Source of the DNA: Piper betle
Taxonomy: Eukaryota; Streptophyta; Magnoliopsida; Piperales; Piperaceae
Length of the DNA stretch: 64,000 bases
Reading direction: 5' to 3'
NCBI GenBank assembly: GCA_033002965.1
Contig: JAURVB010005953.1
Coordinates: 1 to 64,000, forward strand
The translations under genes and the position numbers were made by a program. This document shows, in pieces, positions 8,299 to 45,078 of this stretch. The notes below the pieces were generated by a model, which saw nothing but the letters and a program-made list of their open reading frames with translations, was not told the origin of the DNA and ran no database searches. Position 1 is the first letter of the stretch; every line of letters starts with the position of its first letter.

Positions 8299-8319
8299 TG
8301 TGTGTGTGTGTGTGTGTGT
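8299..8319. repeat. (TG)n microsatellite in copy 1 intron
   Basis: About ten TG dinucleotides, downstream of exon 7 of copy 1. The repeat is not present at the matching place in copies 2-4. Confidence 0.85.
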
Positions 8320-10650: not shown

Positions 10651-10990
10651 CTGGGCGGCGAACACGACGGAGGCGGAGTCGACGGCGAGGTCGAGGGAGT
10701 TGAGGACGAGGAATCGGGTTTCGCGGCGGATTTGCAGGAGGACGTCAGCGGCGCCGGAGAGGTGCAGGCGGCGACGTTGGGCCCTGGGCGGGGGACGGCA
10801 AAGTCCGGAAGGCCGGTCTGGCCTCGGATCTGCTCCATCGGCGGCGGCTACAAACGCCGGCGAAGGTCGGAGGCGGCACCGATTTGTCCGGCGAGAAATG
10901 GGGCGCCAACGGGGCCTTATACTTGCAACCGTTTGAAAAGATTTAAAAATAAAAAACAAAAACAAAAGAAAACGCTCTTACCGCTTTTTT

Positions 10991-20000: not shown

Positions 20001-23000
20001 CTGGCAGATATTTTCACCAAGTTTCTGCCAATCAACCGACATGACGACCATTAGACCAAGCTATGCCTGGTTGATTCCCACTCATAGCTTGAGGGGGAGT
20101 GTTAAAGTCCTTAAAATATATGTGTGTACATGTATATGTGCCACCGAAATGGTGGATGTGTTTTCACAGTTTCTTTGATGTGTTTAGTGTTCAAATTTTA
20201 ATTGAGAGTAAGTAGAAAATTAATCCCTCAGAATCAGTGATTAGTTGTAACCTCCTTTTGTCTAGAAATACATACACTAGGTGGTGAAGCTGTATGTGAA
20301 TCACCCCTATTTTCTATTGCTTGTTTCCCTAATTATACTTGTTTCAACAATGTAAATGTAAATTTTGTTATTACATCTAGTATGATTTTACAGGCCATTA
20401 GCAATAAGAGGTCCTAGGTTTAGTCTACAAAATTTCATCTACTATCGTCGTAAATAGGTAATTGATGATACCATATGCTTAATGGACTATCACAGATGTT
20501 TTTTGACTCTCTTAATATTCGTCTTTCTTTCTACTTTTCCACATGACCACCAACAATGCCAAAAATAAGATAACGTTTCGAAAAATGTTTATGTCGCTAG
20601 CTTTCCAAACACAAAATCTTTTTGGGCTCAAATCAAATTTCTCATGCGGTAAAAAAAGGCATTTCAAAATAAATTGTTCAGAAAGATGAAACAGCAATTT
20701 CATGAATTAAAACAAGCAAGATTATCAGCATCAGCTAATATTTCAGACAACAAACTATTAGGAAGACAAAAATGTTTTCCATCACCAATCCAATCAGTTT
20801 TCACATTGAAGTTCATTCCAAAAATGAAAATATTTAGGAACACTAAAAATCAACACATCATATCAGTCAATATAAGAGCTAAAATACAAAATATAATAGA
20901 ATCACCAAACAAAAAGAAATTTTTGCGAAACAACAAGTTATTAGAATGCTTACTTTGCTGAAAACAGAAGCAGATGAATAGAAAAAGATTTCAACTCATC
21001 CAAACAATCTGGCAATGCAGCGCCAACAATCTTCACAACTTTATTGCAGATCTAATTAAACCAAGGAAAAGATTATCGTTTTAACACAATATTGCAATTT
21101 GGAAATATATCACATTTTTTAAAAAAATATTAAAAAAAACGAAAAACTGTAATTACTTCAATGAGTTTTGATGTCACAACGTAATCAAGATCTCCTCCAT
21201 ATGCATTCATCAAAGAGAGTAAAGAGGATAGGGTTTGCTCGCAAGCCTCACAGAGAGCATAAGAATCATTAAGAATACCTAATCATCAGAAGGAAAAGGA
21301 AACAGATTAGGTAAGATGAGAATAGAGAGCTGGGTGCTAGTCTCTACAAACACATACCAAATCTATCAGCTGCGGACAAAGAATGAGCTTTAATTGCTGT
21401 TTGCAGTCTTTCTCCAAGCTTCTCATCATATTTTACCCTGTAAAAACCAGTCTGCTCAAAATTGACTTTTACCCACCATTGTTCACTTTCCAAAATATTG
21501 GCGTTTTTTCCATCATGGAATGAGTGAAGTTCATCTATGTCCATACTTCCAATCTTACTTTTGAGCAAAAAATTCCTTTTTTCTTGTCTAACCCAGAATA
21601 TAATGTCAATGGAACAATCCATTGTCCATCCCCAACAGAACCATTTGCACAAAATTGTGACTGCAAAGTGAAGTCATAGTCATATTTATAAGAATCAGAT
21701 CTTTTGAAAGCAAATATAAACCAAAATAAGTAAAAAAATTTCAAGGCTAGTATGTCACATGTAATAGACCTGCTTAAACACCAACGCATTATCCTTGAGT
21801 TCTACACTGACAACTGGGTACCCTTTTTGCTTTGTCCAGGTATCCATCAACTTGTTGACTTCCACACCCGATTCCTCAGAAAGAACACCCCACAAATCTT
21901 CGGTCTTGGCATTTTTGAAAGCATACTTTTTGACATATGAAGCTAAGGATTTCTGACTCAGAAACAAACTTATATGTACGGTCAAACGACAATCATAACA
22001 TATATATCATCCGTATAAATGCATAACTTCTTACCATCCTAAAATAAAAAGAAAAAGAAGAAAGTGAAACCAGTAAAAGCCTACTTAATATTGTTCAATA
22101 ACCGACCTGAAATATCTCTGCACCAAGAAAACTTTGCAGCATACGAATAATTGAAGCACCCTTTTGATAGCTTATAGCATCAAAAATTTCATCCACTGAA
22201 CGAGCAATCCCCACCTCTACCTACAGTTATAACATTTTTAGTACCAAATTGCTGATAAAAAAAATTCATATGATAATCCCAACAAAAATCTATATTTTAA
22301 CACTTGACAGCCCGTATTTAATGCCATAACCTAATCCCCCACCCCCTCCCCTCCCCCTCCTCACCCCCTAAAAAAGATAATAATAGACAGCAGTGATATC
22401 AACTCCGCATTAGTTCAAAACATGCATGATATTCAGCTTGAAAATGCAATATCTTTAAGGAATGAACATCAAAACATCAGTAGGAAAAGGGATAAAGAAG
22501 TAAGTCAAAATCTTTTTTTTACTTAGCTCGACACATTCTGTGATGTGAAACAACAAAGATATTGATTAATATATGTAATTCTCTAGGGCGGATAAAGTTG
22601 AAAACAGTATGTTGAATCGAACATGAGCAGATGCAGGGAAGTAGAAAGTTCACGTTCACTATGAAAGGTAAAAATATAAAATAAGATGTCCAAAACTTGT
22701 TCCAGCTTTAGCTTTTAGCTTCATACGGATATAGATACACAAAGCTTTCAGCAAAAAACTGCAATTAGTAGAATTACAGAAAAACCTCTCCACCAATTTG
22801 TCAGACAACAAAGCATGATATCAAACAAAAATACAAGATATTTCTGCAAAGCATATAATGAATGATGCCCTACTATGAGCCAGAAAAGCACCTGCCTAAC
22901 GTCATATCAGTTACAAACAAATGGCATCAGGTAAACAATAGACATAAGTATGGCATTTAGAGATAGGTGACTACCCTTAAAATGTATATTGGCAATCCTT

Positions 23001-25083
23001 AAAATGTTTTGACTGACGATATGAAAACAATCTTACTCATGAGTTATTAGTTTACCTACCGGTGAGAATCAACTTGAATTTTATGTTTATAAAATTTAAG
23101 ATAGAAAAAATTTTCGACCATCCTTCTGATTGCAAGATAGGTAGGCAACCTTTAAAATATTTTGACTGATCTATGCAAACAATTTCACTCATGAGGTATG
23201 ACTCATAAGTTCATCTACTAGTTGGAATCAACTTGGGGGTGGGTTTTTGCGTTCTCAAAAATGAAGAAGAATGAAATTTTATTCATCCTAGTGAGTAGAT
23301 GAAATGCTGGAGTCAAGTGGGAACAGAGAATACATAGAGAAGAGCATATTTGTCTGGGAGTGATTGTTTACTTCGATAGGGTGTGATTCTCCCAGTGCAT
23401 CCAGCCTCAAGCCAGCCGTAGTTTCTCCAAGAAATTGAGTCCAAATTTTCCACTCCGGAAACAGATAATCAGAAGCCAAATAACTCACCTGGATAATTAT
23501 ATGGTTCACATAAATAGTGTCTCAGAGTATTGGCAAAAAGGAAACAACAGCAAATGAACAAGTATATTCAAGCAAACAAGACAGTAAATATGTGATACCC
23601 ATGTAGCAAAACCTTCATTCAGCCATAAATGGGTCCACCACTCCATTGTGACAAGGTTACCAAACCACTGGTGGGCAAGTTCATGTGCGATAACAATCGC
23701 AACCTTTTCACACACAAGGAAAAATGGCTTATATCAGCTATCAATAACATTGTCAAAACAACCTCTTGAACAAGATTGGAGGACCATGTGTTGTACCCGT
23801 TGCTTATTAGCAGCTGAAGAGTGCTTATCATCATAGAGTAATGCTGTATCCTGATAAGTGACAAGACCATAGTTCTCCATGGCACCAGCTGCAAAATCTG
23901 GGATCGCAACCATATCCAGCTTTGGAAGTGGATAGGGCATTGCAAAGTAACTACAAAGCCCAAACAGTTAAAACACGAGCAAAACTACTCTTCTAATAAC
24001 TCTCAGGGGCAGTTAGTTGGTATATCAATAACTACATGAACAGGAAGTAACTATCACAAAATCACAAAATAAATATAGGGCACGTACTTCTTATACAAAT
24101 CAAGAACCTTCACTGCAACCTCTAGCCCGAATTTTCCTTGTTCACTCTTTCCAACAGGACAATAGACACTAACCTTAACCCCTGTAAAACCGTACAAATC
24201 ATAAACTGTCTTTCCGAAATCCAAAGGAAACAGTAGCGATTTCTTTTTTTATTTTATGGTTATGATTTACCGTCATTAGTGACGTCGTGAATCACATCGA
24301 ACAACCCAACTACAAAGGCCACCAAATAAGTTGACATCAAAGGGGACTCCTCATAACACACAGTCTTGACATCCCCATCAACCTTCTCCTCCACAACCGG
24401 CATGTTGGACAGAGCAGTCACCTCAGAGGGCACCTCAAGTGTTACCTTAAACGTAGCCTGCATCATCCATCGCACACTCCCAATAAACCCAAACAACCAA
24501 TTCGAATTCGAAGTCACACAAAACAAGCAAGAAAACCCGATCTACCACCTTGAGAGCAGGCTCGTCCCAGCAAGGGAAGCACCGACGAGCATCGACCGGC
24601 TCGAACTGCGTCACGGCCATGTTCTTCTTCTCCCCATTCACCACGTATGAACTCCGGTAAAACCCCTTCATCCCATCGTTCAAAACCCCCGAAAATTCGA
24701 TCGACAGAACCCCTCCCCGGCCGGGATCGGGTCTTCGAACGCGAGCACCACCACCTCATCCTCCGCCAACACCACCACCTCAGACGGCCGGAGCTGCTAA
24801 AACAGATCCCCAGACTGAACGTCAGCGGTCAGAAAAGCGTCAAGATCGAATCTTTCGGGGGTACCTGGGCGGCGCCGGAGGAGGCGGCGAACACGACGGA
24901 GGCGGAGTCGACGGCAAGGTCGAGGGAGTTGAGGACGAGGAATCGGGTTTCGCGGCGGATATGCAGGAGGATGTCGGCAGCGCCGGTGAAGGTGCAGGCG
25001 GCGAGGTTGGGGCGGAGGCGGAGGTCGTAGCGGCGGGGGACGGCGAACTCCGGCAGCCGAGTCTGGCCTCGGAACTGCTCCAT
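14019..25083 (-). CDS. APM1: Aminopeptidase M1, copy 2 (two single-base frame breaks; copia in intron 12)
   Basis: M1 zinc aminopeptidase that removes N-terminal residues from peptides; the plant family member APM1 is linked to auxin transport and embryo and root growth. Exons, 5' to 3': 25083-24865, 24796-24549, 24457-24271, 24181-24088, 23950-23797, 23703-23599, 23488-23372, 22220-22107, 21952-21770, 21660-21358, 21278-21157, 21051-20954, 15504-15327, 15242-15128, 14931-14864, 14772-14695, 14367-14290, 14204-14019. All introns are GT-AG and the phases join. Restoring two bases gives about 882 residues, the family's usual length. GAMEN lies near residue 272, HELAH near 308 and the third ligand in NEGFA near 331, all intact. 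The breaks are one base missing in a C4 run in exon 2 (24710-24713) and one in a T6 run in exon 10 (21577-21582). Intron 12 carries a 4.7-kb copia element on the opposite strand. Either a working gene with base-call errors or a young pseudogene. Confidence 0.85.
15610..15614. repeat. Target-site duplication ATGTA, left
   Basis: It immediately precedes the 5' LTR of the copia element and is matched by ATGTA at 20350-20354. Five bases is the normal copia duplication length. Confidence 0.85.
15615..15862 (+). repeat. 5' LTR of the copia element
   Basis: 248 bases starting TGTTAG and ending AACA, followed by TGGTAT. That is the start of the usual initiator-Met tRNA primer site TGGTATCAGAGC, but the later bases have diverged. 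Confidence 0.88.
20091..20099 (+). other. Polypurine tract of the copia element
   Basis: GAGGGGGAG directly abuts the TGTTAAAG start of the 3' LTR, the normal place for second-strand priming. Confidence 0.75.
20100..20349 (+). repeat. 3' LTR of the copia element
   Basis: 250 bases with clear similarity to the 5' LTR, ending CAACA before ATGTA (20350-20354). The two LTRs differ at many positions, so the insertion is not recent. Confidence 0.88.
22336..22368 (-). other. Intronic G-quadruplex motif, copy 2
   Basis: On the transcribed (minus) sense strand, five runs of four or five G are separated by one to six bases. The tract is in intron 8 and is conserved in copies 3 and 4. Whether it folds is inference. 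Confidence 0.6.
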
Positions 25084-25210
25084 CGGCGGCGTCCGATTTT
25101 CCCGGCATGAAATGGGGCGCGAGCCGGCATTCTTATACTTTCAACGGTTTGAAAAGACTTTATTTTAAAAATAAAAAACAACAAAAGAAAACATCCTAAC
25201 GGCCTTGTTT

Positions 25211-25220
25211 TGGGCCCCAC
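25211..25220. promoter_or_regulatory. TGGGCCCCAC motif upstream of copy 2
   Basis: Same ten-base site II / TCP-like motif as at copies 1 and 3, 128 bases upstream of the start codon. The adjoining TA tract and the foldback insertion begin about 30-45 bases further upstream. Confidence 0.45.
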
Positions 25221-25298
25221 TTGCAAGTACCATTTATTTTTATTTGAGTATATATATATATATAAAATGCTTTGATGCAGCGCATTGGGAGCGATTTT

Positions 25299-25330
25299 TT
25301 GGGCCATTGGATTTTCATCCAATGGCCCAA
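25299..25330. other. Perfect hairpin in left arm of foldback element
   Basis: Stem TTGGGCCATTGGAT, loop TTTC, then the exact complement of the stem. Equivalent hairpins lie at 27445-27480 and 27622-27657. Confidence 0.85.
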
Positions 25331-25829
25331 ACGTGTTTTTTCAATTTTTTCCCCTCCCCCTGTTTTCCTCCTGAGATCGCCTTTCAGCTCGCTAGATTCC
25401 GCCGCTGTTGCCTCCGCCCTCGCCCCTCCGGCCCTACCCTTGCCCCCGGCCCTGCCACCTTTCCCCCTCACCCACCCCGCCTGGGCGAGCCGCGCCCCCC
25501 TGCCTGGGCGAGAGGCGGCCCCCGTGCCCGGGCAAGTGCGGCCCCCGTGCCTGGGCGAGTGAGGCCCCCCTGCCCGGGCGAGGCGCAGCCCCTGGCCCCT
25601 ACCTGGTGCCGCGGCCCGCCCCTACCCCTGTCCAAAGCCGTGGTCCCCCTACCCTCGCCTGGCGCCGCGGCCCGCCCCTGCCGCTGCAGTCCCTCTACCG
25701 ACCCCGCCCACAGCCACGCCCCCCTCCCGCCCCCCGCTGGCGGCCGGCGGCGAGGTCGCCAGCGGTGGAGCTGTGCGGCGAACAATGGGTGGGGAAAGAA
25801 ACAGGGGAGGGTAGTTTAGTAATAAAAAT

Positions 25830-26985
25830 TTGACTCGCTCCTGACTCGAGTCAAAGTTTTTATTAGGAAATAAATTTTAAAAAGAATAAAATAATTTCTT
25901 TAAAAAAAATTGACTAGATCCCGACTTGAGTTAAGTTAATATTATGAAATAAATTTAAAAATAAAATAAAATAATTTCATAAAAAAACTTGACTCAATCT
26001 CGAATCAAGTCAAGTTAATATTATAAAATAAATTTTAAGAAAATAAAATAATATCGTAATAAAAACTTAACTCTAGTCAGGATCAAGTCAATTTTTTATT
26101 ACGAAATAAATTTTAAAAAATAAAATAATTTCGTTAAAAAAATTTGATTCGATCTCAACTGGAGTTAAATTAGTTGTATGGAATAAATTTTTAAAAAATA
26201 ATTTTGTAGTAAAAATTTGACTTGTGTCGGGATCGAGTCAATAATATGAAATAAATTTAAAAAAATATAAAATAATTTTGTAATAAAAAGCTGACTCGAT
26301 CATGTGCGGGATCGAGTCAAGTTTTTATTACAAAATAAATTTATTACCGAATAAATTTTTATTACAAAATAAATTTAAAAAAATAAAATGATTCCGTAAT
26401 AAATTATTTTAACTCAAGTCGGGATCGAATAAAGTTTTTATTAAGAAATTATTTGTTTAATTTTTTTGTCGCCGCCTCAGTGCTGGATGGGCCTGTTGAA
26501 AATACATGGTGCCGATCTCATGTGGGACCAATAAAATTTTTATTACAAACTTATTTTATTTTTTAAAATTTATTTCGTAATATTGACTCGATCTCGTGCA
26601 GGATCGAGTCAAGTTTTATGACAAAATTATTTTATTTTATTTTTAAATTTATTTTATAATATTGACTCGATCCCGAGCGAGATCGAGTCAAGTTTTTATA
26701 AAAAAATTTTATTTTTTTAATTTATTTCGTAACGGGCGGAGAGGGGTCAGGGGGCGGTAGAAGGCGAGGCAGGGGGCCTGGGCCGGTGGAGGGCATGGGG
26801 CAGCAAGTGTGGGGGACGGGGGCAGGGTGTGGGTGGCGACACGGAGGTGATCGGCAAGCGGCGTAAAATTTTAAAAATTTATTTCGTAAAATTGACTCGA
26901 GTAAGGAGCGAGTCAATTTTTTATTTTATTATATTTTATTTTTAAAATTTATTTCGTAAATTTGACTCGAGTCGGGAACGAGTCA
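25830..26985. repeat. Tandem array of about 12 imperfect hairpins
   Basis: About every 70-90 bases, with some larger gaps, an imperfect palindrome of the type TTGACTCGA...TCGAGTCAA recurs (near 25833, 25909, 25988, 26068, 26143, 26217, 26291, 26409, 26581, 26663, 26891 and 26963). Several extend outward through paired AT-rich arms such as TTTCGTAATAAAAA and its complement. A non-palindromic G-rich patch lies at 26735-26850. No reading frame is conserved across units. Confidence 0.75.
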
Positions 26986-27444
26986 AATTTTTATTACGAA
27001 ATTGCCATCGCTCTTCCTTTCCCCGTCGCGCCACCGCCGGCGGTGATGCAGTGACGCCGGCGTGGAGGTGGCCAGGGCAGCAGACGGCGGGGAGGAGCTC
27101 TGTCGACGGGCGGGGTGGCGGCGGGGTGGGTGGCGAAACAGGGCAGGGGCGAGCGGGGCCGCAGCGGGGGTGGGGCGAAACAGGCGACGTGGGGGCGGGG
27201 TTGGGGAACACGGGGCAGGTGGGGGGGAGGGCTGCGGGCAGGGGTAGGGCGGGGGCGAGGCAGCGGAAGAGGCGATGGCGGAGGGGGCAGGGGGAAACAG
27301 GGGAGGTCGAGGGGAAGGCTGCGGGCGGGGCGGGGGAACCAGGGTAGGTGGGGGGAGGGCTGCGAGCGGAGGCGGGACGGGGCTGGGGCCGGCGGGGGCG
27401 GGGCGGCGTGAACAATGGTAGGAGGAGAGGGTAAAAAAAATTAT

Positions 27445-27480
27445 ATCTGGGCCGTTGGATTTTCATCCAACGGCCCAGAT
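27445..27480. other. Perfect hairpin in right arm of foldback element
   Basis: Stem ATCTGGGCCGTTGGAT, loop TTTC, exact complement. A second hairpin with a CAGTGCG stem follows at 27492-27521. Confidence 0.88.
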
Positions 27481-27529
27481 TTGTTCCGCTGCAGTGCGCT
27501 GCATTTTCATGCAACGCACTGTAACACGC

Positions 27530-27530
<1 letters not shown>

Positions 27531-27565
<35 letters not shown>
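27531..27565. repeat. TA-repeat tract
   Basis: About 17 TA units between the foldback element and the partial second element. Related TA tracts lie near 25249-25264 and 36332-36357, marking the original insertion target. Confidence 0.85.
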
Positions 27566-27568
<3 letters not shown>

Positions 27569-27848
27569 AGAGTAATGCTATGGTGCGCTGCCATCTTTTG
27601 GCAGCGCACCATGCACTACAAATCTGGGCCGTTGGATCGCGATCCAACGACCCAGATCACTTTGCCAAAAACCCCCCACAGTCCGTTGCTCGCCCCTGCC
27701 GGCCGGCCGAGCCCCGCCGCGGCCCATGCGGCCGACCCCCGCCGGAGCCCGCCCGCCGGACCTCCGCAAGCCGTCGCCCCTCACCGGCGGCCCCCTCCGC
27801 CACCGCAAATCCACCCCCTCCCGCCTCCCGCCACCGCCCCCATCTTTT
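27566..27848. mobile_element. Partial second foldback arm
   Basis: This carries hairpins 27582-27610 (GGTGCGCTGCCA stem, short loop) and 27622-27657 (ATCTGGGCCGTTGGAT stem, loop CGCG) followed by a GC-rich tract, in the same order as the left arm of the larger element. It ends at ATATATAAAGAATTTA, which rejoins the sister spacer sequence. It looks like one arm of a related element or a nested remnant. Confidence 0.55.
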
Positions 27849-28459
27849 TTATATATAAAGAATTTAGAAGTAACATTTAAAATGATATTTTTTCTTATTT
27901 ATTTTTTGCCAATAATTTTAAATCGTTCCTGATTAGAAAAAAAGATAATTTCAATTTGACCGCGGTTTGAGATATACTTAGAATGAATAATCATATGAAA
28001 TTACAAATTATAATAAAATAAAGGGAAAATTATTATAGAAAAATCTACCAATCAGAATTGCTCAATGAGATGAACTTTGAGATTTTTTGTCACATATCTT
28101 CCCCTTTTTAACAGATATTTAGGAGGTGGGTAATTTCTAATATAGAATCTTGAACACATTCAATGGAGACTCATGTTTTCTACTTAGTAGTCAAGAGTGA
28201 AGGCTTGGACTACGCTTCTATCATCTTTCATAAAATCAAACCGATTTGTCCTTCCCTGCAACATAGTCATGTTAGTATTCATATTCCTAAATTTTAGTCA
28301 TCGAATGTCTTTGACTAATAAAAAAAGATAAGTAGGATGTTAATGGTTGAGTGTTGGTAAATTTTTTGGGTACAATCAGGGATGTCTTTTTATATCACGA
28401 ACATTCACAAACGAAAAAAGCGTAAGCATTTAAAAAAAAATTGCCTATTTATTATGCAG

Positions 28460-28591
28460 TTCTCACTCTCAAGAATATTTTTGACTCTTTAGATCCAGTA
28501 GAACCAAAGGACTACTCGGACTTGATCACACTTAAGGATGAAAATTTAAGACTGATTTTGAATGGCTTGGTTCCAAGGAGCCGGGAGAAAT
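28460..28591 (+). pseudogene. Unidentified terminal-exon remnant in spacer S2
   Basis: A plus-strand frame begins after a plausible acceptor (TTATTATGCAG) and reads LTLKNIFDSLDPVEPKDYSD, later NLRLILNGLVPRSREK, then a stop. The composition looks like true protein. A shorter, frameshifted copy lies near 36955-37091 in the spacer between copies 3 and 4. It is absent from the spacer between copies 1 and 2. I do not recognise the parent gene. Confidence 0.4.
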
Positions 28592-28664
28592 AGGGTTGGA
28601 GCCAGTGGATTCTTTCAGCCACTGAAATTTAATTCTGACCTGTGACATGATACAACAATTCTGA

Positions 28665-28790
28665 CCTGTGGTTGCATGCATTACCGGCAAGTTCAAGACC
28701 TCGAAAAGGAATCCATACATGCCACCATATCAGTCCTGCGCTGGATTCCGGTAGACGGCCAACGAGGGGGCATTGGCCAACACTGAATCA
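28665..28790. repeat. Spacer block repeated between aminopeptidase copies (S2)
   Basis: Shortened copy of the block at 12670-12947 and 37342-37590. It joins the end of the exon remnant region directly, so about 290 bases present in the next spacer are missing here. Confidence 0.5.
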
Positions 28791-29135
28791 AAGGGATACT
28801 ACATTATTTTCTAATAAGCCAGGGGCATTTCATATCAAGTTGGCCTCAATTAAAGCAGCGGAAAATATTCTTCCACCAGTGCTCTTCCTTTGCCAACTTA
28901 TCCCTGCTATAGATCAGGTAAGATATAAGCCACTTCACATAGAGAAGTCAAAAATATACGGAGTTTCGTCAGACAAAATATTGCACTAGGAAATAGATTT
29001 ATTGCTCTACATTTATTCACCAGCAGATTCAAGAGAGATCACATTGTTTTATTATTTTAACTCCAACAATCGCAATAGTACAAGATGCTGACACAACAAG
29101 GATAGATTGTTGTAGCATCAGCTCACTTACTGAGA

Positions 29136-32100
29136 TCAATCCTTTATCAGAGCCAATTCTTTGATTAAGACCTCGAGTGATTGCTCCTGTTTTATGCTCT
29201 GTACCCACCTAGCATTGATGCGAACTTGCTCCACACTTTGCTTTAATGTCATGGAAATTGAAGGTGTAACTCGACTTGCAAAAAGGCCTCTATTTCTTGA
29301 GCATTCTCCTCATAGTAAAACTTCATAGAGATGAAACCCGGTTAAAATAAAACTTAATCTGACAGCAAATGTACAGCAGAACGGAGATAAAAAATGCCAA
29401 CTTACCGGTGAGACTATCCGACGGACAATTGATGGAAGAAAAAGCTTGCACCCCATCTTTTAGCAATTGCCTCCCAATTTTCCTGCAAATCAGTAGAAAT
29501 GTGGTCATAACAAGCACTTTCAATTTGTGAAAAAATTTCCTAGGTAGAATTAGTGGAAAGGCACATATATCCTTTGTTCCCCCAAACTACCAAGGACTGC
29601 CAACAAACTAACACCTTTTCAATAGAAAAGCATTCAGCAGGCATTTTAAAGTTTAAGCAGCCACGCCAAGAAATTATTTTTTGTTAGCCAACAAATTATG
29701 CATTGCCAATATGATTTACAACAAAACTGAAAACCATTCACATTTCATTAGCAAGATTTCTAGTCTGGCACAAATTAAATAGCATTAAAGGCTCTCTAAG
29801 CATTCTACCTTCAACCACGACCATGCTATGTCACGCCCCTCCCAACTTATTCCCGAAAGGCCATAAATAACATCTTGTCCACGAACCTAAAAAATTGCTT
29901 GGTTCGAGTAAACAACCTCATTGAACTTCAAAATGTCAAATCAAGGAGAAACACAGATGCAAAACGTAAGAATTAACCTCAGATGACAGAATAAAGTTCA
30001 AAGCTTCGAGAACAATTTCTGGATCTGGAGAAGATGCCATCGATGCTGCAAAAAACAAATAAAATTTTTTTCCCGCATGTTAAGACATGAAGGAATCTCA
30101 TATGAGAGTCTGGAGATAAAAGGTTTTTGTCGTCCAAAATGACAGTTTTGTTACGTGATGTTCGTGGAAAAATACCAGATGTGATTGTGAGAAATTTGCA
30201 CCAATAGACACCGTAAAGCAATGCCTCAATCTAGATTGATTACCTAAAAGGCGACCCTTCTCTTCTGCAACATCGGTTTCTCTATAAAGCTTCAGCAGAG
30301 AATCAAAACCACTCCTGTTGCTAGCATTAACAGCTTTCATTACAGACAAGTATGCAGCCTAAAGAAATCAAAATTAAAAATTATTAGAAAATAAAAGGCA
30401 TTCTAGTATTCATGGCATCCGAAAAAATTCAAATGTTTGAACCTTTCTTATATCTGCAGGAAGAAGAGGGGTATTCCTGTCATCCAGGAAAGTGTGAAAA
30501 CGAATTGAAGCCTCTTTGAGGGTGGCATCATGACCCAAATATACCAATGCAGTCAAAAGCTCTCCTCTCAATAACACGTTCAGATGGCTCTCACCAGTCA
30601 CAGGATCCCAACCTAACTTACTGAAATAACAATTAAACATGGAAAATGCAACATCAGTTAGTAAATTATCAAAAGAACATATGCAGAAGAATTTTAGTTC
30701 AGGGTACAAAAAAATTGGATGCTAATGTAAGATAAAGTCCTTAAAAAACATATGTGTACATGTATATGTGTGCCACCGAAATGGTGGATGTGTTTTGACT
30801 GTTTCATGATGTGTTTAGTGTTCAAATTTTAGTTGACCTTGGGAAGCTCCAATACTTCTTAGGAATTAAGGTATCTACAAATGCTAATGGTATTCTTCTA
30901 AGCCAAAGGAAATATGTCTAAGATCTGCTTAAGGATACAGGACCGAAAGATTCCATACTTGTAGACATGCCGCGGGAGACATCCACAAAACTGGACCCTA
31001 ATGATGGTGACTTGTTTCCAGATCCAACATTAAATAGGTGGATTGCGGGAAGGTTGATTTATCTTACAGTTACTAGGCCTCAATTGGCTTTTACAGTTAG
31101 TATAGTAAATCAATTTATGCAAAGCCCACAGACTTCACTGAACAGCTGAACTTAGAATACATTGCCATATTAGAAAATATCCAAGTAGGGGACTGTTTTA
31201 CAAGTCTTTAAAATATTTGTGTGTACATGTATATGTGCCACCGAAATGGTGGATGTGTTTTCACAGTTTCTTTGATGTGTTTAGTGTTCAAATTTTAGTT
31301 GAGAGTAAGTAGAAAATTAATCCCTCAGAATCAGTGATTAGTTGTAACCTCCTTTTGTCTAGAAATACATACACTAGGTGGTGAAGCTGTATGTGAATCA
31401 CCCCTATTTTCTATTGCTTGTTTCCCTAATTATACTTGTTTCAACAATGTAAATGTAAATTTTGTTATTACATCTAGTATGATTTTACAGGCCATTAGCA
31501 ATAAGAGGTCCTAGGTTTAGTCTACAAAATTTCATCTACTATCGTCGTAAATAGGTAATTGATGATACCATATGCTTAATGGACAATCACAGATGTTTTT
31601 TGACTCTCTTAATATTCGTCTTTCTTTCTACTTTTCCACATGACCACCAACAATGCCAAAAATAAGATAACGTTTCGAAAAATGTTTATGTCGCTAGCTT
31701 TCCAAACACAAAATCTTTTTGGGCTCAAATCAAATTTCTCATGCGGTAAAAAAAGGCATTTCAAAATAAATTGTTCAGAAAGATGAAACAGCAATTTCAT
31801 GAATTAAAACAAGCAAGATTATCAGCATCAGCTAATATTTCAGACAACAAACTATTAGGAAGACAAAAATGTTTTCCATCACCAATCCAATCAGTTTTCA
31901 CATTGAAGTTCATTCCAAAAATGAAAATATTTAGGAACACTAAAAATCAACACATCATATCAGTCAATATAAGAGCTAAAATACAAAATATAATAGAATC
32001 ACCAAACAAAAAGAAATTTTTGCGAAACAACAAGTTATTAGAATGCTTACTTTGCTGAAATCAGAAGCAGATGAATAGAAAAAGATTTCAACTCATCCAA

Positions 32101-35100
32101 ACAATCTGGCAATGCAGCGCCAACAATCTTCACAACTTTATTGCAGATCTAATTAAACCATGGAAAAGATTACGTTTTAAAACAATATTGCAATTTGGAA
32201 ATATATCACATTTTTTAAAAAAATATTAAAAAAAACGAAAAACTGTAATTACTTCAATGAGTTTTGATGTCACAACGTAATCAAGATCTCCTCCGTATGC
32301 ATTCATCAAAGAGAGTAAAGAGGATAGGGTTTGCTCGCAAGCCTCACAGAGAGCATAAGAATCATTAAGAATACCTAATCATCAGAAGGAAAAGGAAACA
32401 GATTAGGTAAGATGAGAATAGAGAGCAGGGTGCTAGTCTCTACAAACACTTACCAAATCTATCAGCTGCGGACAAAGAATGAGCTTTAATTGCTGTTTGC
32501 AGTCTTTCTCCAAGCTTCTCATCATATTTTACCCTGTAAAAACCAGTCTGCTCAAAATTGACTTTTACCCACCATTGTTCACTTTCCAAAATATTGGCGT
32601 TTTTTCCATCATGGAATGAGTGAAGTTCATCTATGTCCATACTTCCAATCTTACTTTTGAGCAAAAAATTCCTTTTTTCTTGTCTAACCCAGAATATAAT
32701 GTCAATGGAACAATCCATTGTCCATCCCCAACAGAACCATTTGCACAAAATTGTGACTGCAAAGTGAAGCCATAGTCATATTTATAAGAATCAGATCTTC
32801 TGAAAGCAAATATAAACCAAAATAAGTAAAAAAATTTCAAGGCTAGTATGTCACATGTAATAGACCTGCTTAAACACCAACGCATTATCCTTGAGTTCTA
32901 CACTGACAACTGGGTACCCTTTTTGCTTTGTCCAGGTATCCATCAACTTCTTGACTTCCACACCCGATTCCTCAGAAAGAACACCCCACAAATCTTCGGT
33001 CTCGGCATTTTTGAAAGCATACTTTTTGACATATGAAGCTAAGGATTTCTGAATCAGAAACAAACTTATATGTACGGTCAAACGACAATCATAACATATA
33101 TACCATCCGTATAAATGCATAACTTCTTACCATCCTAAAATAAAAAAGAAAAAGAAGAAAGTGAAACCAGTAAAAGCCTACTTAATATTGTTCAATAACC
33201 GACCTGAAATATCTCTGCACCAAGAAAACTTTGCAGCATACGAATAATTGAAGCACCCTTTTGATAGCTTATAGCATCAAAAATTTCATCCACTGAACGA
33301 GCAATCCCCACCTCTACCTACAGTTATAACATTTTTAGTACCAAATTGCTGATAAAAAAATTCATATGATAATCCCAACAAAAATCTATATTTTAACATT
33401 GACAGCCCGTATTTAATGCCATAACCTAATCCCCCACCCCTCCCCTCCCCCTCCTCACCCCCCTAAAAAAGATAATAATAGACAGCAGTGATATCAACTC
33501 CGCATTAGTTCAAAACATGCATGATATTCAGCTTGAAAATGCAATATCTTTAAGGAATGAACATCAAAACATCAGTAGGAAAAGGGATAAAGAAGTAAGT
33601 CAAAATCTTTTTTTTACTTAGCTCAACACATCCTGTGATGTGAAACAACAAAGATATTGATTAATATATGTAATTCTCTAGTGCGGATAAAGTTGAAAAC
33701 AGTATTTTGAATCGAACATGAGCAGGTGCAGGGAAGTAGAAAAGTTCATGTTCACTATGAAAGGAAAAAATATAAAATAAGATGTCCAAAACTTGTTCCA
33801 GCTTTAGCTTTTAGCTTCATAAGGATATAGATACACAAAGCTTTCAGCAAAAAACTGCAATTAGTAGAATTACAGAAAAACCTCTCCACCAATTTGTCAG
33901 ACAACAAAGCATGATATCAAACAAAAATAAAAGATATTTCTGCAAAGCATATAATGAATGATGCCCTACTATGAGCCAGAAAAGCACCTGCCTAACGTCA
34001 TATCAGTTACAAACAAATGGCATCAGGTAAACAATAGACATAAGTATGGCATTTAGAGATAGGTGACTACCCTTAAAATGTATATTGGCAATCCTTAAAA
34101 TGTTTTGACTGACGATATGAAAACAATCTTACTCATGAGTTATTAGTTTACCTACCGGTGAGAATCAACTTGAATTTTATGTTTATAAAATTTAAGATAG
34201 AAAAAATTTTCGACCATCCTTCTGATTGCAAGATAGGTAGGCAACCTTTAAAATATTTTGACTGATCTATGCAAACAATTTCACTCATGAGGTATGACTC
34301 ATAAGTTCATCTACTAGTTGGAATCAACTTGGGGGTGGGTTTTTGCGTTCTCAAAAATGAAGGATGAAATTTTATTCATCCTAGTGAGTAGATGAAATGC
34401 TGGAGTCAAGTGGGAACAGAGAATACATAGAGAAGAGCATATTTGTCTGGGAGTGATTGTTTACTTCGATAGGGTGTGATTCTCCCAGTGCATCCAGCCT
34501 CAAGCCAGCCGTAGTTTCTCCAAGAAATTGAGTCCAAATTTTCCACTCCGGAAACAGATAATCAGAAGCCAAATAACTCACCTGGATAATTATATGGTTC
34601 ACATAAATAGTGTCTCAGAGTATTGGCAAAAAGGAAACAACAGCAAATGAACAAGTATATTCAAGCAAACAAGACAGTAAATATGTGATACCCATGTAGC
34701 AAAACCTTCATTCAGCCATAAATGGGTCCACCACTCCATTGTGACAAGGTTACCAAACCACTGGTGGGCAAGTTCATGTGCGATAACAATCGCAACCTTT
34801 TCACACACAAGGAAAAATGGCTTATATCAGCTATCAATAACATTGTCAAAACAACCTCTTGAACAAGATTGGAGGACCATGTGTTGTACCCGTTGCTTAT
34901 TAGCAGCTGAAGAGTGCTTATCATCATAGAGTAATGCTGTATCCTGATAAGTGACAAGACCATAGTTCTCCATGGCACCAGGAAAATCTGGGATCGCAAC
35001 CATATCCAGCTTTGGAAGTGGATAGGGCATTGCAAAGTAACTAAAAAGCCCAAACAGTTAAAACACGAGCAAAACTACTCTTCTAATAACTCTCAGGGGC

Positions 35101-36174
35101 AGTTAGTTGGTATATCAATAACTACATGAACAGGAAGTAACTATCACAAAATCACAAAATAAATATAGGGCACGTACTTCTTATACAAATCAAGAACCTT
35201 CACTGCAACCTCTAGCCCGAATTTTCCTTGTTCACTCTTTCCAACAGGACAATAGACACTAACCTTAACCCCTGTAAAACCGTACAAATCATAAACTGTC
35301 TTTCCGAAATCCAAAGGAAACAGTAGCGATTTCTTTTTTTATTTTATGGTTAAGATTTACCGTCATTAGTGACGTCGTGAATCACATCGAACAACCCAAC
35401 TACAAAGGCCACCAAATAAGTTGACATCAAAGGGGACTCCTCATAACACACAGTCTTGACATCCCCATCAACCTTCTCCTCCACAACCGGCATGTTGGAC
35501 AGAGCAGTCACCTCAGAGGGCACCTCAAGTGTTACCTTAAACGTAGCCTGCATCATCCATCGCACACTCCCAATAAACCCAAACAACCAATTCGAATTCG
35601 AAGTCACACAAAACAAGCAACAAAACCCGATCTACCACCTTGAGAGCAGGCTCGTCCCAGCAAGGGAAGCACCGACGAGCATCGACTGGCTCGAACTGCG
35701 TCACGGCCATGTTCTTCTTCTCCCCATTCACCACGTATGAACTCCGGTAAAACCCCTTCATCCCATCGTTCAAAACCCCCGAAAATTCGATCGACAGAGC
35801 CCCCTCCCCGGCCGGGATCGGGTCTTCGAACGCGAGCACCACCACCTCATCCTCCGCCAACACCACCACCTCAGACGGCCGGAGCTGCTAAAACAGATCC
35901 CCAGACTGAACGTCAGCGGTCAGAAAAGCGTCAAGATCGAATCTTTCGGGGGTACCTGGGAGGCGCCGGAGGAGGCGGCGAACACGACGGAGGCGGAGTC
36001 GACGGCAAGGTCGAGGGAGTTGAGGACGAGGAATCGGGTTTCGCGGCGGATATGCAGGAGGATGTCGGCAGCGCCGGTGAAGGTGCAGGCGGCGAGGTCG
36101 GGGCGGAGGCGGAGGTCGTAGCGGCGGGGGACGGCGAACTCTGGCAGCCTGGTCTGGCCTCGGAACTGCTCCAT
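29136..36174 (-). CDS. APM1: Aminopeptidase M1, copy 3 (hybrid gene, three single-base breaks)
   Basis: Same 18-exon layout as copies 2 and 4. Exon 1 is 36174-35956 and exon 2 35887-35639, the latter with an intact frame, unlike copies 2 and 4. HELAH and NEGFA are intact. One alanine before GAMEN is lost in frame, giving DFPGAMEN. Breaks: the T6 run in exon 10 (32673-32678) shared with copies 2 and 4; one base lost in exon 17 (about 29431-29444); one base lost in an A5 run in exon 18 (29280-29284, six A in copies 2 and 4). Exons 1-12 and their introns are almost identical to copy 2, while exons 13-18 match copy 4; the switch lies at the copia remnant in intron 12. With three breaks this copy is the least likely of copies 2-4 to be functional, but the errors could be technical. 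Confidence 0.75.
30730..31446 (+). mobile_element. Copia remnant in intron 12 of copy 3
   Basis: It holds about 110 bases of the 5' LTR fused directly to the end of the reverse transcriptase region (about 30838-31200), then fused to the 3' LTR, followed by ATGTA. The position matches the complete element of copy 2. It retains about 30 bases (ending near 31144) that the copy 2 element lacks, so neither descends directly from the other. Confidence 0.85.
33431..33463 (-). other. Intronic G-quadruplex motif, copy 3
   Basis: Counterpart of the copy 2 tract, with slightly different G-run lengths on the sense strand. Confidence 0.6.
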
Positions 36175-36298
36175 CGGCGGCGTCCGATTTTTCCGGCTAG
36201 AAATGGGGCGCGAGCGGACATTCTTATGCTTTCAACGGTTTGAAAATACTTTTTTTTAAATAAAAAGAACAAAAGAAAACATCCTGACGGCCTTTTTT

Positions 36299-36308
36299 TG
36301 GGCCCCAC
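36299..36308. promoter_or_regulatory. TGGGCCCCAC motif upstream of copy 3
   Basis: Site II / TCP-like motif 125 bases upstream of the start codon, shared with copies 1 and 2. Confidence 0.45.
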
Positions 36309-36331
36309 TTGCAAGTAACATTTATTTTTAT

Positions 36332-36357
36332 TTGTATATATATATATATATATATAT
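36332..36357. repeat. TA repeat, unoccupied foldback site
   Basis: A simple TA tract followed by AAAGAATTTACAAATAAC. The same sequence flanks the foldback insertion upstream of copy 2, so this is the empty site. Confidence 0.75.
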
Positions 36358-37341
36358 AAAGAATTTACAAATAACATTTAAAATGATATTTTTAAATATT
36401 TTATTAATATTTTAATGGTATTTTTTACTTATTTATTTTTGGCCAATAATTTTAAATCGTTCCCGGTAAAAAAAAAGATGGTTTCAATTTGATCGTGGTT
36501 GAGATATACTTAGAATGAATAATCACATGTAATTACAAATTATAATGAAAGAAATTATAATAAAATAGAAGGAAAATAGTTTTAGAAAAATCTACCAATC
36601 AGAATTGCTCAATGAGACGAACTTTGAGAATTTTTGTCGCATATCTTCCCCAATTATTAACAGATATTTAGGAGCTGGGTAATTTCTAATAGTATCTTTG
36701 GGAGGTGGGAAAGTAGTCAAGATTGAAGACTTGGACTATGCTTCTGTCATCTTTCATAAAATCAAACCGATTTGTCCTTTTATGCAACATAGTCATGTTA
36801 GCATTCATGTTCCAAAATTTTAGTCTTCGAATGTCTTTGACTAATAAAAAAAAGATAAGTAGGATGTTAATTGTTGAGTGTAGGTAAAATTTTGTGGGTA
36901 CAAACGAAAAATAGCGTAAGCATTTTTTTTAAAAAAAATTGCCTATTTATTACGCACTTCTCGCTCTCAAAAACATTTTTGACTCTTTTTAGATCCAGTA
37001 GAACTAAAGGACTACTCGAACTTGATCACACTAAGGATGAAAATTTAAGATTGATTTTGAATGGCTTGGTTCCAAGGAGCCGGGAGAAATAGTTGGAGCC
37101 AGTGGATTCTTTCAGCCACTGAAATTTAATTCTGACCGGTGACATGATACAACAATTCATTCAAAATTTCATATCTTATAATCTGTATTAAATTTCCGCA
37201 ATCATCAAAGCATGCTTCATTCCTTGAAGGCTCCTTTCTCGTCTCATTCTATCATATGGTTCCTAAGCAGCCAGTTATCTGCCTCACATGGCCATGATGC
37301 GTCCCCGGGGAGCTTTTCGGAGCCTCAGACGTCAAAACGCG

Positions 37342-37590
37342 GTTATATCACCGACGGGCACAAAGATTGCCAGCCCTAGAGTGAGTGATCTTCACACACA
37401 TTTGTGATTCAAAGTAACAACATTCCTATGGTTGCACGCATTACCAGCAAGTTCAAGACCTCGAAAAGGAATCCATACGTGCCACCATATCAGTCCTGCA
37501 CCGGATTCCGGTAGACGGCCAACGCGGGGGCATTGGCAACTCCCTTTATCTAGCATGGAGAGATCTGTGCAGATCCTAGTGGCAAAGACT
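37342..37590. repeat. Spacer block repeated between aminopeptidase copies (S3)
   Basis: The most complete copy of the block at 12670-12947. It is uninterrupted by the solo LTR and the hAT-like element, and so gives the empty sites for both. Confidence 0.5.
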
Positions 37591-37931: not shown

Positions 37932-40900
37932 TCAATCTTTTATCAGAGCCAATTCTTTGATTAAGACCTCGAGTGATTCCTCCTGTTTTATGTTCTGTAC
38001 CCACCTAGCATTGATGCGAACTTGCTCCACACTTTGCTTTAATGTCATGGAAATTGAAGGTGTAACTCGACTTGCAAAAAAGGCCTCTATTTCTTGAGCA
38101 TTCTCCTCATAGTAAAACTTCATAGAGATGAAACCCGGTTAAGAGGAACACTTAATCTGACATTAAATGTACAGCAGAACGGAGATAAAAAATGCCAACT
38201 TACCGGTGAGACTATCCGACGGACAATTGATGGAAGAAGAAAGCTTGCACCCCATCTTTTAGCAATTGCCTCCCAATTTTCCTGCAAATCAGTAGAAATG
38301 TGGTCATAACAAGCACTTTCAATTTGTGAAAAAATTTCCTAGGTAGAATTAGTGGAAAGGCACATATATCCTTTGTTCCCCCAACCTACCAAGGACTGCC
38401 AACAAACTAACACCTTTTCAATAGAAAAGCATTCAGCAGGCATTTTAAAGTTTAAGCAGCCATGCCAAGAAATTATTTTTTGTTAGCCAACAAATTATGC
38501 ATCGGCAATATGATTTACAACAAAACTGAAAACCATTCACATTTCATTAGCAAGATTTCTAGTCTGGCACAAATTAAATAGCATTAAAGGCTCTCTAAGC
38601 ATTCTACCTTCAACCACGACCATGCTATGTCACGCCCCTCCCAACTTATTCCCGAAAGGCCATAAATAACATCTTGTCCACGAACCTAAAAAATTGCTTG
38701 GTTCGAGTAAACAACCTCATTGAACTTCGAAATGTCAAATCAAGGAGAAACGCAGATGCAAAACGTAAGAATTAACCTCAGATGACAGAATAAAGTTCAA
38801 AGCTTTGAGAACAATTTCTGGATCTGGAGAAGATGCCATCGATGCTGCAAAAAACAAATAAAAATTTTTTCCCGCATGTTCAGACATGAAGGAATCTCAT
38901 ATGAGAGTCTGGAGATAAAAGGTTTTTGTCGTCCAAAATGACAGGTTGGTTACGTGATGTTCGTGGAAAAATACCAGATGTGATTGTGAGAAATTTGCAC
39001 CAATAGACACCGTAAAGCAATGCCTCAATCTAGATTGATTACCTAAAAGGCGACCCTTCTCTTCTGCAACATCGGTTTCTCTATAAAGCTTCAGCAGAGA
39101 ATCAAAACCACTCCTGTTGCTAGCATTAACAGCTTTCATTACAGACAAGTATGCAGCCTAAAGAAATCAAAAGTAAAAATTATTAGAAAATAAAAGGCAT
39201 TCTAGTATTCATGGCATCCGAAAAAAATTCAAATGTTTGAACCTCTCTTATATCTGCAGGAAGAAGAGGGGTATTCCTGTCATCCAGGAAAGTGTGAAAA
39301 CGAATTGAAGCCTCTTTGAGGGTGGCATCATGACCTAAATATACCAATGCAGTCAAAAGCTCTCCTCTCAATAACACGTTCAGATGGCTCTCACCAGTCA
39401 CAGGATCCCAACCTAACTTACTGAAATAACAATTAAACATGGAAAATGCAACATCAGTTAGTAAATTATCAAAAGAACATATGCAGAAGAATTTTAGTTC
39501 AGGGTACAAAAAAATTGGATGCTAATGTAAGATAAAGTCCTTAAAATACATATGTGTACATGTATATGTGCCAACGAAACGGTGGCTGTGTTTTGACTGT
39601 TTCTTGATGTGTTTAGTGTTCAAATTTTAGTTGACATTGGGAAGCTCCAATACTTCGTAGGAATTAAGGTATCTAGAAATGCTAATGGTATTCTTCTAAG
39701 CCAAAGGAAATATGTCTAAGATCTGCATAAGGATACATGACCGAAAGATTCCATACTTGTAGACATGCCGCGGGAGACATCCACAAAACTGGACCCTAAT
39801 GATGGTGACTTGTTTCCAGATCCAACATTGAATAGGTGGATTGTGGGAAGGTTGATTTATCTTACAGTTACTAGGCCTGAATTGGCTTTTGCAGTTAGTA
39901 TAGTAAATCAATTTATGCAAAGCCCAAAGACTTCACTGAACAGCTGTACTTAGAATACATTGCCATATTAGAAAATATCCAAGAAGGGGACTGTTTTACA
40001 AGTCTTTAAAATATATGTGTGTACATGTATATGTGCCACCGAAATGGCGGATGTGTTTTCGCAGTTTCTTTGATGTGTTTAGTGTTCAAATTTTAGTTGA
40101 GAGTACGTAGAAAATTAATCCCTCAGAATAAGTGATTAGTTGTAACCTCCTTTTGTCTAGAAATACATACACTAGGTCATGAAGCTGTATGTGAATCACC
40201 CCTATTTTCTATTGCTTGTTTCCCTAATTATACTTGTTTCACACAATGTAAATGTAAATTTTGTTATTACATCTAGTATGATTTTACAGGCCATTAGCAA
40301 TAAGAGGTCCTAGGTTTACTCTATAAAATTTCATCTACTATCGTTGTAAATAGGTAATTGATGATACCATATGCTTAATGGACTATCACAGATGTTTTTT
40401 GACTCTCTTAACATTCGTTTTTCTTTCTACTTTTCCACATGACCACCAACAATGCCAAAAAAAAGATAACGTTTCGAAAAATGTTTCTGTCGCTAGGTTT
40501 CCTAACACAAAATCTTTTTCGGCTCAAATCAAATTTCTCATGCGATAAAAAAAGGCATTTCAAAATAAATTGTACAGAAAGATGAAAAAACAATTTCATG
40601 CATTAAAACAAGCAACATTATCAGCATTAGCTAAAAGCTCAGACAACAAACTATTAGGAAGACAAAAATGTTTTCGATTACCAATCCAATTAGTTTGGAC
40701 ATTGAAGTCTACTCCAAAAATGAAAATATTTAGGAGCACTAACAATCAACACATCATATCAGTCAATATAAGAGCTAAAATACAAACTATAATGGAATCA
40801 TCAAACAAAAAGAAATTTTTGCGAAACAACAATTTATTAGAACGCTTACTTTGCTGAAAACAGAAGCAGATGAATAGAAAAAGATTTCAACTCATCCAAA

Positions 40901-43900
40901 CAATCTGGCAATGCAGCGCCTACAATCTTCACAACTTTTTTGCAGATCTAATTAAACCAAGGAAAAGTTTATGTTTTAACACAATATTGCAATATGGAAA
41001 TATATCACATTTTTTAAAAAATATATTAAAAAAAACGAAAAACTATAATTACTTCAATGAGTTTTGATGTCACAACGTAATCAAGATCTCCTCCGTATGC
41101 ATTCATCAAAGAGAGTAAAGAGGATAGGGTTTGCTCGCAAGCCTCACAGAGAGCATAAGAATCATTAAGAATACCTAATCATCAGAAGGAAAAGGAAACA
41201 GATTAGGTAAGATGAGAATAGAGAGCAGGGTGCTAGTCTCTACAAACACTTACCAAATCTATCAGCTGCGGACAAAGAATGAGCTTTAATTGCTGTTTGC
41301 AGTCTTTCTCCAAGCTTCTCATCATATTTTACCCTGTAAAAACCAGTCTGCTCAAAATTGGCTTTTACCCACCATTGTTCACTTTCCAAAATATTGGCGT
41401 TCTTTCCATCATGGAATGAGTGAAGTTCATCTATGTCCATACTTCCAATCTTACTTTCGAGCAAAAAATTCCTTTTTTCTTGTCTAACCCAGAATATAAT
41501 GTCAATGGAACAATCCATTGTCCATCCCCAACAGAACCATTTGCACAAAATTGTGACTGCAAAGTGAAGTCATAGTCATATTTATAAGAATCAGATCTTC
41601 TGAAAGCAAATATAAACCAAAATAAGTAAAAAAATTTCAAGGCTAGTATGTCACATGTAATAGACCTGCTTAAACACCAACGCATTATCCTTGAGTTCTA
41701 CACTGACAACTGGGTACCCTTTTTGCTTTGTCCAGGTATCCATCAACTTGTTGACTTCCACACCCGATTCCTCAGAAAGAACACCCCACAAATCTTCGGT
41801 CTCGGCATTTTTGAAAGCATACTTTTTGACATATGAAGCTAAGGATTTCTGACTCAGAAACAAACTTATATGTACGGTCAAACGACAATCATAACATATA
41901 TACCATCCGTATAAATGCATAACTTCTTACCATCCTAAAATAAAAAAGAAAAAGAAGAAAGTGAAACCAGTAAAAGCCTACTTAATATTGTTCAATAACC
42001 GACCTGAAATATCTCTGCACCAAGAAAACTTTGCAGCATACGAATAATTGAAGCACCCTTTTGATAGCTTATAGCATCAAAAATTTCATCCACTGAACGA
42101 GCAATCCCCACCTCTACCTACAGTTATAACATTTTTAGTACCAAATTGCTGATAAAAAAATTCATATGATAATCCCAACAAAAATCTATATTTTAACCTT
42201 GACAGCCCGTATTTAATGCCATAACCTAATCCCCCACCCCCTCCCCTCCCCCTCCTCACCCCCCCTAAAAAAGATAATAATAGACAGCAGTGATATCAAC
42301 TCCGCATTAGTTCAAAACATGCATGATATTCAGCTTGAAAATGCAATATCTTTAATGAACATCAAAACATTAGTAGAAATAGGGATAAAGAAGTAAGTCA
42401 AAATCTTTTTTTACTTAGCTCGACACATTCTGTGATGTGAAACAACAAAGATATTGATTAATATATGTAATTCTCTAGGGCGGATAAAGTTGAAAACAGT
42501 ATGTTGAATCGAACATGAGCAGATGCAGGGAAGTAGAAAGTTCACGTTCACTATGAAAGGTAAAAATATAAAATAAGATGTCCAAAACTTGTTCCAGCTT
42601 TAGCTTTTAGCTTCATACGGATATAGATACACAAAGCTTTCAGCAAAAAACTGCAATTAGTAGAATTACAGAAAAACCTCTCCACCAATTTGTCAGACAA
42701 CAAAGCATGATATCAAACAAAAATACAAGATATTTCTGCAAAGCATATAATGAATGATGCCCTACTATGAGCCAGAAAAGCACCTGCCTAACGTCATATC
42801 AGTTACAAACAAATGGCATCAGGTAAACAATAGACATAAGTATGGCATTTAGAGATAGGTGACTACCCTTAAAATGTATATTGGCAATCCTTAAAATGTT
42901 TTGACTGACGATATGAACAATCTTACTCATGAGTTATTAGTTTACCTACCGGTGAGAATCAACTTGAATTTTATGTTTATAAAATTTAAGATAGAAAAAA
43001 TTTTCGACCATCCTTCTGATTGCAAGATAGGTAGGCAACCTTTAAAATATTTTGACTGATCTATGCAAACAATTTCACTCATGAGGTATGACTCATAAGT
43101 TCATCTACTAGTTGGAATCAACTTGGGGGTGGGTTTTTGCGTTCTCAAAAATGAAGGATGAAATTTCATTCATCCTAGTGAGTAGATGAAATGCTGGAGC
43201 CAAGCGGGAACAGAGAATACATAGAGAAGAGCATATTTGTCTGGGAGTGATTGTTTACTTCGATAGGGTGTGATTCTCCCAGTGCATCCAGCCTCAAGCC
43301 AGCCATAGTTTCTCCAAGAAATTGAGTCCAAATTTTCCACTCCGGAAACAGATAATCAGTAGCCAAATAACTCACCTGGATGATTATATGGTTCACATAA
43401 ATAGTGTCTCAGAGTATGGGCAAAAAGGAAACAACAGCAAATGAACAATTATACTCAAGCAAACAAGACAGTAAATATGTGATACCCATGTAGCAAAACC
43501 TTCATTCAGCCATAAATGGGTCCACCACTCCATTGTGACAAGGTTACCAAACCACTGGTGGGCAAGTTCATGTGCGATAACAATCGCAACCTTTTCACAC
43601 GCAAGGAAAAATGGCTTATATCAGCTATCAATAACAGTGTCAAAACAACCTCTTGAACAAGATTGGAGGACCATGTATCGTACCCATTGCTTATTAGCAG
43701 CTGAAGAGTGCTTATCATCATAGAGTAACGCTGTATCCCGATAAGTGACAAGACCATAGTTCTCCATGGCACCAGCTGCAAAATCTGGGATCGCAACCAT
43801 ATCCAGCTTTGGAAGTGGATAGGGCGTTGCAAAGTAACTACAAAGCCCAAACAGTTAAAACACGAGCAAAACTACTCTTCTAAGAACTCTCAGGGGCAGT

Positions 43901-44967: not shown

Positions 44968-45009
44968 CGACGGCGGCGGTTTCGTCTTCTCCGGCGAGTC
45001 GCGGTGCCG

Positions 45010-45024
45010 CGGGTCGTTATATAT
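45010..45024 (-). promoter_or_regulatory. TATA-like sequence upstream of copy 4
   Basis: The minus strand reads AAATATATAACG about 50 bases upstream of the start codon. The other copies do not share it. It may be a core promoter specific to copy 4. Confidence 0.3.
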
Positions 45025-45078
45025 TTAATAATTCAAAGCCTGTTTATTGTAAATCATAAAATGATGATTACTTTATGA

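Follow-up and report, generated by a model that had tools for sequence, protein, structure and literature searches.

Mosaic genes made by exchange between tandem paralogues represent an already known kind of event. In the Lepore and anti-Lepore globin fusions, the fusion gene is placed between both of its parents in the array. For the maize P1-wr array, amplification by unequal crossover and homogenisation by gene conversion are both inferred, and the authors leave it open whether the maize p1/p2 hybrid gene arose by crossover or by conversion (PMC2686159). In the same paper, conversion tracts at bz are quoted as 1-1.5 kb, and sharing within the P1-wr array is inferred over several kb (PMC2686159).

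The window analysed here, which covers the initial 64 kb of contig C4355 (173 kb), holds four M1 aminopeptidase copies arranged head-to-tail on the minus strand, each with 18 exons in a spliced alignment to the guide protein P0001 (Table 1). Copies 2-4 share 93-99% mutual identity within aligned blocks (BLAST). The M1 aminopeptidase signature consists of a GAMEN motif and an HEXXH...E zinc site; it is present in copies 2-4 (GAMEN, the zinc site HELAHQWF, and WLNEG) and fails in copy 1, where HDITYQWF replaces HELAHQWF (8553-8654), so that the zinc-binding site is lost, and where in-frame stops are found too. A rough translation of copy 3 matched puromycin-sensitive aminopeptidase 8sw0 (E=1.3e-169), and the exon translation of copy 4 was 65-66% identical to Aristolochia aminopeptidase M1-like proteins, the best among 120 matches listed of 7985 found, which marks the DNA as that of a plant. 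Elsewhere in the assembly, contig C1591 carries a near-canonical paralogue in which a single frame break was called close to residue 32, and C7448 carries a decayed one.

Several further features of the window were observed. Copy 4 ceases to match the other copies at approximately 44975, 8 bp upstream of its ATG (region 44975-45200), and its exon 1 (11%) and intron 1 (17-18%) are unusually diverged; the 5' end of copy 4 may thus be of another origin. In the insert at 25265-27850, GC-rich outer parts (up to 72%) enclose an AT-rich core in which 79-bp units are repeated in tandem and also occur inverted, and our guess is that it represents a foldback-type element. Beyond the array, coding stretches of a molybdate transporter (MFS_MOT1) are located at 61047-62421, the second ORF scoring under the curated cut-off, and a minus-strand ORF at 49376-50275 has a Myb/SANT-like DNA-binding domain.

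Table 1. Coordinates of the aminopeptidase copies, spacers, copia elements and tracts within the window.
Feature	Position	Strand	Remarks
Copy 1	3823-10838	-	Diverged, used as outgroup; DNA identity to other copies mostly 72-74%
Copy 2	14019-25083	-	Spliced alignment
Full-length degenerate copia, intron 12 of copy 2	15615-20349	+	LTRs differ at 27/248 aligned sites
Copy 2/copy 3 spacer	25092-28661		Holds 2.6-kb insert at ~25265-27850
Copy 3, M1 aminopeptidase, 18 exons	29136-36174	-	Spliced alignment to P0001; stop TGA 29138-29136
Copy-4-like arm of copy 3	29143-31207	-	Exons 17-13, plus exon 18 when the fit includes exons; introns; left part of copia remnant
Copia remnant, intron 12 of copy 3	30730-31446	+	5' LTR fragment to ~30836, RT-coding piece, 3' LTR 31203-31446
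Affinity switch, copy 4 to copy 2	31207-31250		Inside 3' LTR, 5-48 bp from second joint (31202/31203)
Copy-2-like arm of copy 3	31250-36141	-	From intron 12 (right part) as far as exon 1; differs from copy 2 by 0.87% with exons
Copies 2, 3 and 4 all nearly identical	32246-34372	-	HMM, Fisher
Copy 3/copy 4 spacer	36175-37424		7.5-8.5% from homologous parts of copy 2/3 spacer
Copy 4	37932-44967	-	Homology to other copies up to ~44975
Copia remnant, copy 4	39530-40245	+	Deletion joints identical to copy 3 remnant

Each aligned substitution was classed by whether it grouped copy 3 with copy 2 (P), copy 3 with copy 4 (Q) or copy 2 with copy 4 (R), and the classes were counted over the columns of 29136-36174 in which copies 2, 3 and 4 all align. 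The totals were 144 P and 102 Q, and these were distributed very unevenly: the best split, at 31207/31250, separated a left part with P:Q of 19:89 from a right part with 125:13 (Fisher 3e-33), a contrast reached by none of 20000 permutations. Pairwise BLAST, without a multiple alignment, gave a matching profile. Copy 3 is thus a real mosaic of its two neighbours, copies 2 and 4. Against copy 4, the left arm diverged by 1.9% with exons and by 2.1-2.5% in noncoding columns, with its left end at 29142 or 29366. A sequence-only reading of this locus had placed the switch at approximately 31200-31450, with the left half of copy 3 and the left part of its copia remnant following copy 4, and had proposed a per-site check of variant sharing; that check, run here, recovered one dominant switch, in intron 12, and upheld the copy-4-like left half, with the divergence tract spanning exons 17-13, and exon 18 if exons are counted. 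The companion claim, that everything from the 3' LTR to exon 1 follows copy 2, holds for the right part overall but not for the stretch at 32246-34372, where copy 3 showed no preference (P 7, Q 7, R 13).

The pattern was polarised by copy 1, using only columns with a good copy 1 alignment. Shared-derived states, given as 3+4:2+3:2+4, numbered 5:1:2 in the left part, a small count that is exceeded there by 11 private copy 2 changes, and 1:18:1 in 31250-35999, or 1:25:2 with the bins from 36000 included, where copy 4 aligns poorly. Given these polarised counts, the pattern is not explained merely by copy 2 or copy 4 having a long branch. Over 28662-36174, 64 substitutions put copy 2 with copy 4 against copy 3, one 17-bp cluster (33441-33458) being counted as one.

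The switch is located within the relics of a copia element. The element in copy 2, which lies on the strand opposite to the aminopeptidase gene, has the TG...CA LTR ends and 5-bp target duplication of Ty1/copia LTR elements (ATGTA at 15610-15614 and 20350-20354). It matched RVT_2 (6.4e-30), as well as gag_pre-integrs (5.6e-6) and a copia-type gag (7e-4), both below their cut-offs; no integrase core was found in the four of its ORF pieces searched. Since ATGTA is found on both sides of the element in copies 2, 3 and 4, a single insertion is indicated. The remnant in copy 3, whose 3' LTR (31203-31446) lacks its first bases, has in common with that of copy 4 the previously reported LTR-to-RT deletion joint, between the 5' LTR fragment and the RT-coding piece, and also a second joint between the RT-coding piece and the 3' LTR; at these two joints, copy 2 retains approximately 3.5 kb and 0.5 kb, respectively. 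The LTR as a recombination hotspot was considered as a means of discriminating between mechanisms and discarded, as a switch near a joint suits crossover and conversion equally.

The stretch at 32246-34372 was assessed separately. Noncoding differences between copies 2 and 4 numbered 10/1396 within it, compared to 39/701 and 38/686 on either side (p=2.5e-11 and 3.8e-11, for borders that were picked on the same data). Among HMMs with one to five states (BIC 3607, 3410, 3384, 3454 and 3546), three states gave the lowest value. A BIC-penalised change-point fit retained two breaks only, at 31224 and 35873, and therefore only one strong switch inside the gene, which makes the middle tract less than certain. 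It is probable that copy 4 took part in another exchange at 32.2-34.4 kb.

Homologous spacers flank copy 3, in that 27871-28661 matches 36405-37158 and 25091-25264 matches the region up to 36352. As had been noted from the sequence alone, both of these spacers contain a putative exon remnant (~36821-37158; 28291-28661) that is absent before copy 2; in the copy 2/3 spacer, the segment at 28291-28661 contains a short open frame. The divergence of the spacers was different from that of the gene bodies. Between copies 2 and 3, the right introns differed at 33/2793 sites (1.18%) and the spacer at 79/926 (8.53%), an approximately sevenfold step (p=6.6e-25), while between copies 3 and 4 the left noncoding columns differed at 34/1379 (2.47%) and the left flank at 34/463 (7.34%; p=1e-5). 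These values were taken over aligned columns, since the spacer identity of 82.5% from the first BLAST overstates point divergence through indels, and they retain 15 differing sites clustered at 36692-36710, a possible alignment artefact. Pairwise alignment gave 23/2792 (0.82%) and 71/947 (7.50%) for the introns and spacer of copies 2/3, and 34/1379 (2.47%) and 24/460 (5.22%) for the left noncoding part and left flank of copies 3/4, the latter being a weaker step. The two flanks were alike in age (8.53% vs 7.34%, p=0.47), and the two arms differed from one another (p=0.0025, or p=0.057 with left introns only).

With exons included, the step between copies 2 and 3 fell at 36141/36142, from 41/4692 (0.87%) to 82/959 (8.55%), and that between copies 3 and 4 at 29142/29143, from 35/470 (7.45%) to 39/2058 (1.90%), with 0/2000 permutations reaching either; the copy 3/4 step sits at exon 18/17 and is the weaker of the two. 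Without exons, the best steps were at 35960/35961 and 29366/29367. Low-divergence tracts thus end abruptly between older paralogous flanks, and different tracts pair different copies (3/4 on the left, 3/2 on the right). As a rate control, copy 1 was compared with copy 3 over BLAST-alignable columns, a selection that cost the introns more columns than the spacer: the spacer differed at 92/602 (15.3%) and the introns at 266/1156 and 203/781 (23-26%). Judged against copy 1, the spacer is no faster-evolving than the introns. Given flanks that are more diverged than the gene bodies and a spacer that is not fast, the copies would therefore have been separate before their gene bodies were made alike, and the older spacers thereby call for gene conversion, or for a crossover between unevenly diverged haplotypes.

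The sequence-only reading had proposed that misaligned pairing of copies 2 and 4, followed by one crossover in the copia 3' LTR, produced copy 3 and both of its spacers in a single event. The layout is as such an event would give: the copy order, the one strong switch, the homologous spacers on both sides and the common deletion joints all fit, the left flank of copy 3 is nearer to copy 4 (34/463) than to copy 2 (54/449; p=0.018) in a set of flanks that lie approximately 5-13% apart, and the promoter region of copy 3 has no match in 44976-47500 upstream of copy 4. A single crossover, however, requires arms and duplicated spacers of equal age, and these came out at 1.18%, 2.47% and 8.53% (pairwise 0.82%, 2.47% and 7.50%). 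The excess of the spacers over the right arm, the threefold excess of the left flank over the left arm (twofold in pairwise alignment), the lack of a spacer rate excess against copy 1 and the unequal ages of the arms together make one recent event improbable, although the arrangement it was meant to explain stands.

That arrangement would also be retained if the unequal crossover had taken place between two diverged haplotypes, as alleles may differ little within genes and much within spacers; uneven divergence would then arise in one product, and the spacers indeed differ also by the 2.6-kb insert and a deletion. This reading nevertheless demands approximately 8% allelic divergence starting near both gene ends, as well as one more exchange to account for the middle stretch, and no second haplotype was seen in the assembly searches: a protein search matched this contig and two distant loci only (51/72 candidates scored), and matches of an intron-12 query to other contigs were confined to copia parts. 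We consider it unlikely. An assembly artefact, with copy 3 as a chimera or a false duplication within the contig, could be imagined given the fragmentation of the assembly (527 Mb in 11211 contigs) and several one-base homopolymer length changes, which could be consensus errors. It is rendered highly improbable by the private states that copy 3 carries on both sides of the switch and by its own flanks, which show that it did not arise by simply joining copy 2 to copy 4.

The explanation that probably accounts best for these observations is that copy 3 is a gene-conversion mosaic within an older tandem array. One copia insertion would have occurred in an ancestral gene, within its intron 12, and an older unequal exchange, perhaps with the layout of the crossover described above, would then have multiplied gene and spacer to give copies 2, 3 and 4. 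Afterwards, copies 3 and 4 would have been homogenised in their left halves, over exons 17-13 and the copia remnant with its deletions (~2%). A separate and probably later homogenisation would have affected copies 2 and 3 in their right halves, over 4.9 kb reaching from the 3' LTR of the copia remnant to exon 1 (~1%), and the 32.2-34.4 kb segment probably constitutes another tract. The right tract ends 5-48 bp from the ~0.5 kb of copia kept in copy 2 and absent in copy 3, and the 3.5-kb difference lies ~370 bp beyond; strand exchange would run out of homology at these length differences. The data show the mosaic, the switch, the steps at both gene ends and the greater age of the flanks; we infer that transfer was non-reciprocal, in what order the events took place and that the length differences acted as a barrier. 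Several observations count against conversion, namely that tracts of 2-5 kb are long and end near gene ends, that the change-point fit has one strong switch, that the age gap between the arms weakens with left introns only, that the left-flank step is weaker in pairwise alignment, and that the left flank of copy 3 is nearer copy 4, as in the crossover layout. The other M1 loci, on C1591 and C7448, were rejected as conversion donors, their gene matches being only ~66-74% identical.

The coding state of the copies bears on a possible consequence of such transfer. A frameshift in exon 10 (near 32672 in copy 3, with matching sites elsewhere) is common to copies 2, 3 and 4, a frameshift or length change in exon 2 is common to copies 2 and 4 against copies 3 and 1, and frameshifts in exons 17 and 18 are peculiar to copy 3. 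The exon-2 change is one example of the states that set copies 2 and 4 apart from copies 3 and 1, which speak for conversion. Every frameshift in copies 2-4 is a change of one base in length; several lie in homopolymers, and consensus errors may be among them. Three bases beside the GAMEN motif (34982) are missing in copy 3 alone among copies 2-4, and copy 1 has a same-size gap. An extra base and TAG at exon 1/intron 1, common to copies 2 and 3, were dismissed as lesions, as they are noncoding and lie in the short intron 1 in the spliced alignment. Pairwise Ka/Ks over the whole CDS of copies 2-4 was 0.31-0.43, which suggests constraint; for the left exons of copies 3 and 4 alone it was 1.77, from only one synonymous and six other changes. 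Because the exon-10 frameshift falls inside the near-identical stretch at 32246-34372, conversion may have spread a disabling mutation, a damaged copy overwriting the others until concerted evolution silenced the array, with the near-canonical copy surviving on C1591. This idea is doubtful.

The locus illustrates that a tandem-array hybrid may resemble a crossover product by its switch pattern alone, and that, with an outgroup copy as a check, spacer age here tells the copy-number step apart from the homogenisation that followed. The position of the switch beside the copia length differences may moreover exemplify how transposon insertion delimits exchange between paralogues. Like the Lepore and anti-Lepore fusions, copy 3 sits between its two parent-like copies, but a single-crossover product should have one age for its arms and duplicated spacer, whereas copy 3 shows several. 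Exchange between tandem paralogues has similarly led to chimeric genes in plant resistance-gene clusters such as banana RGA08 (PMC3017797); in contrast, copy 3 is no resistance gene and has one strong internal switch only. The closest case found is maize P1-wr, likewise a plant tandem array with a hybrid gene (PMC2686159). P1-wr differs from copy 3 in its gene family, and in the aminopeptidase array the divergence step close to the ends of the gene helps in telling crossover and conversion apart.
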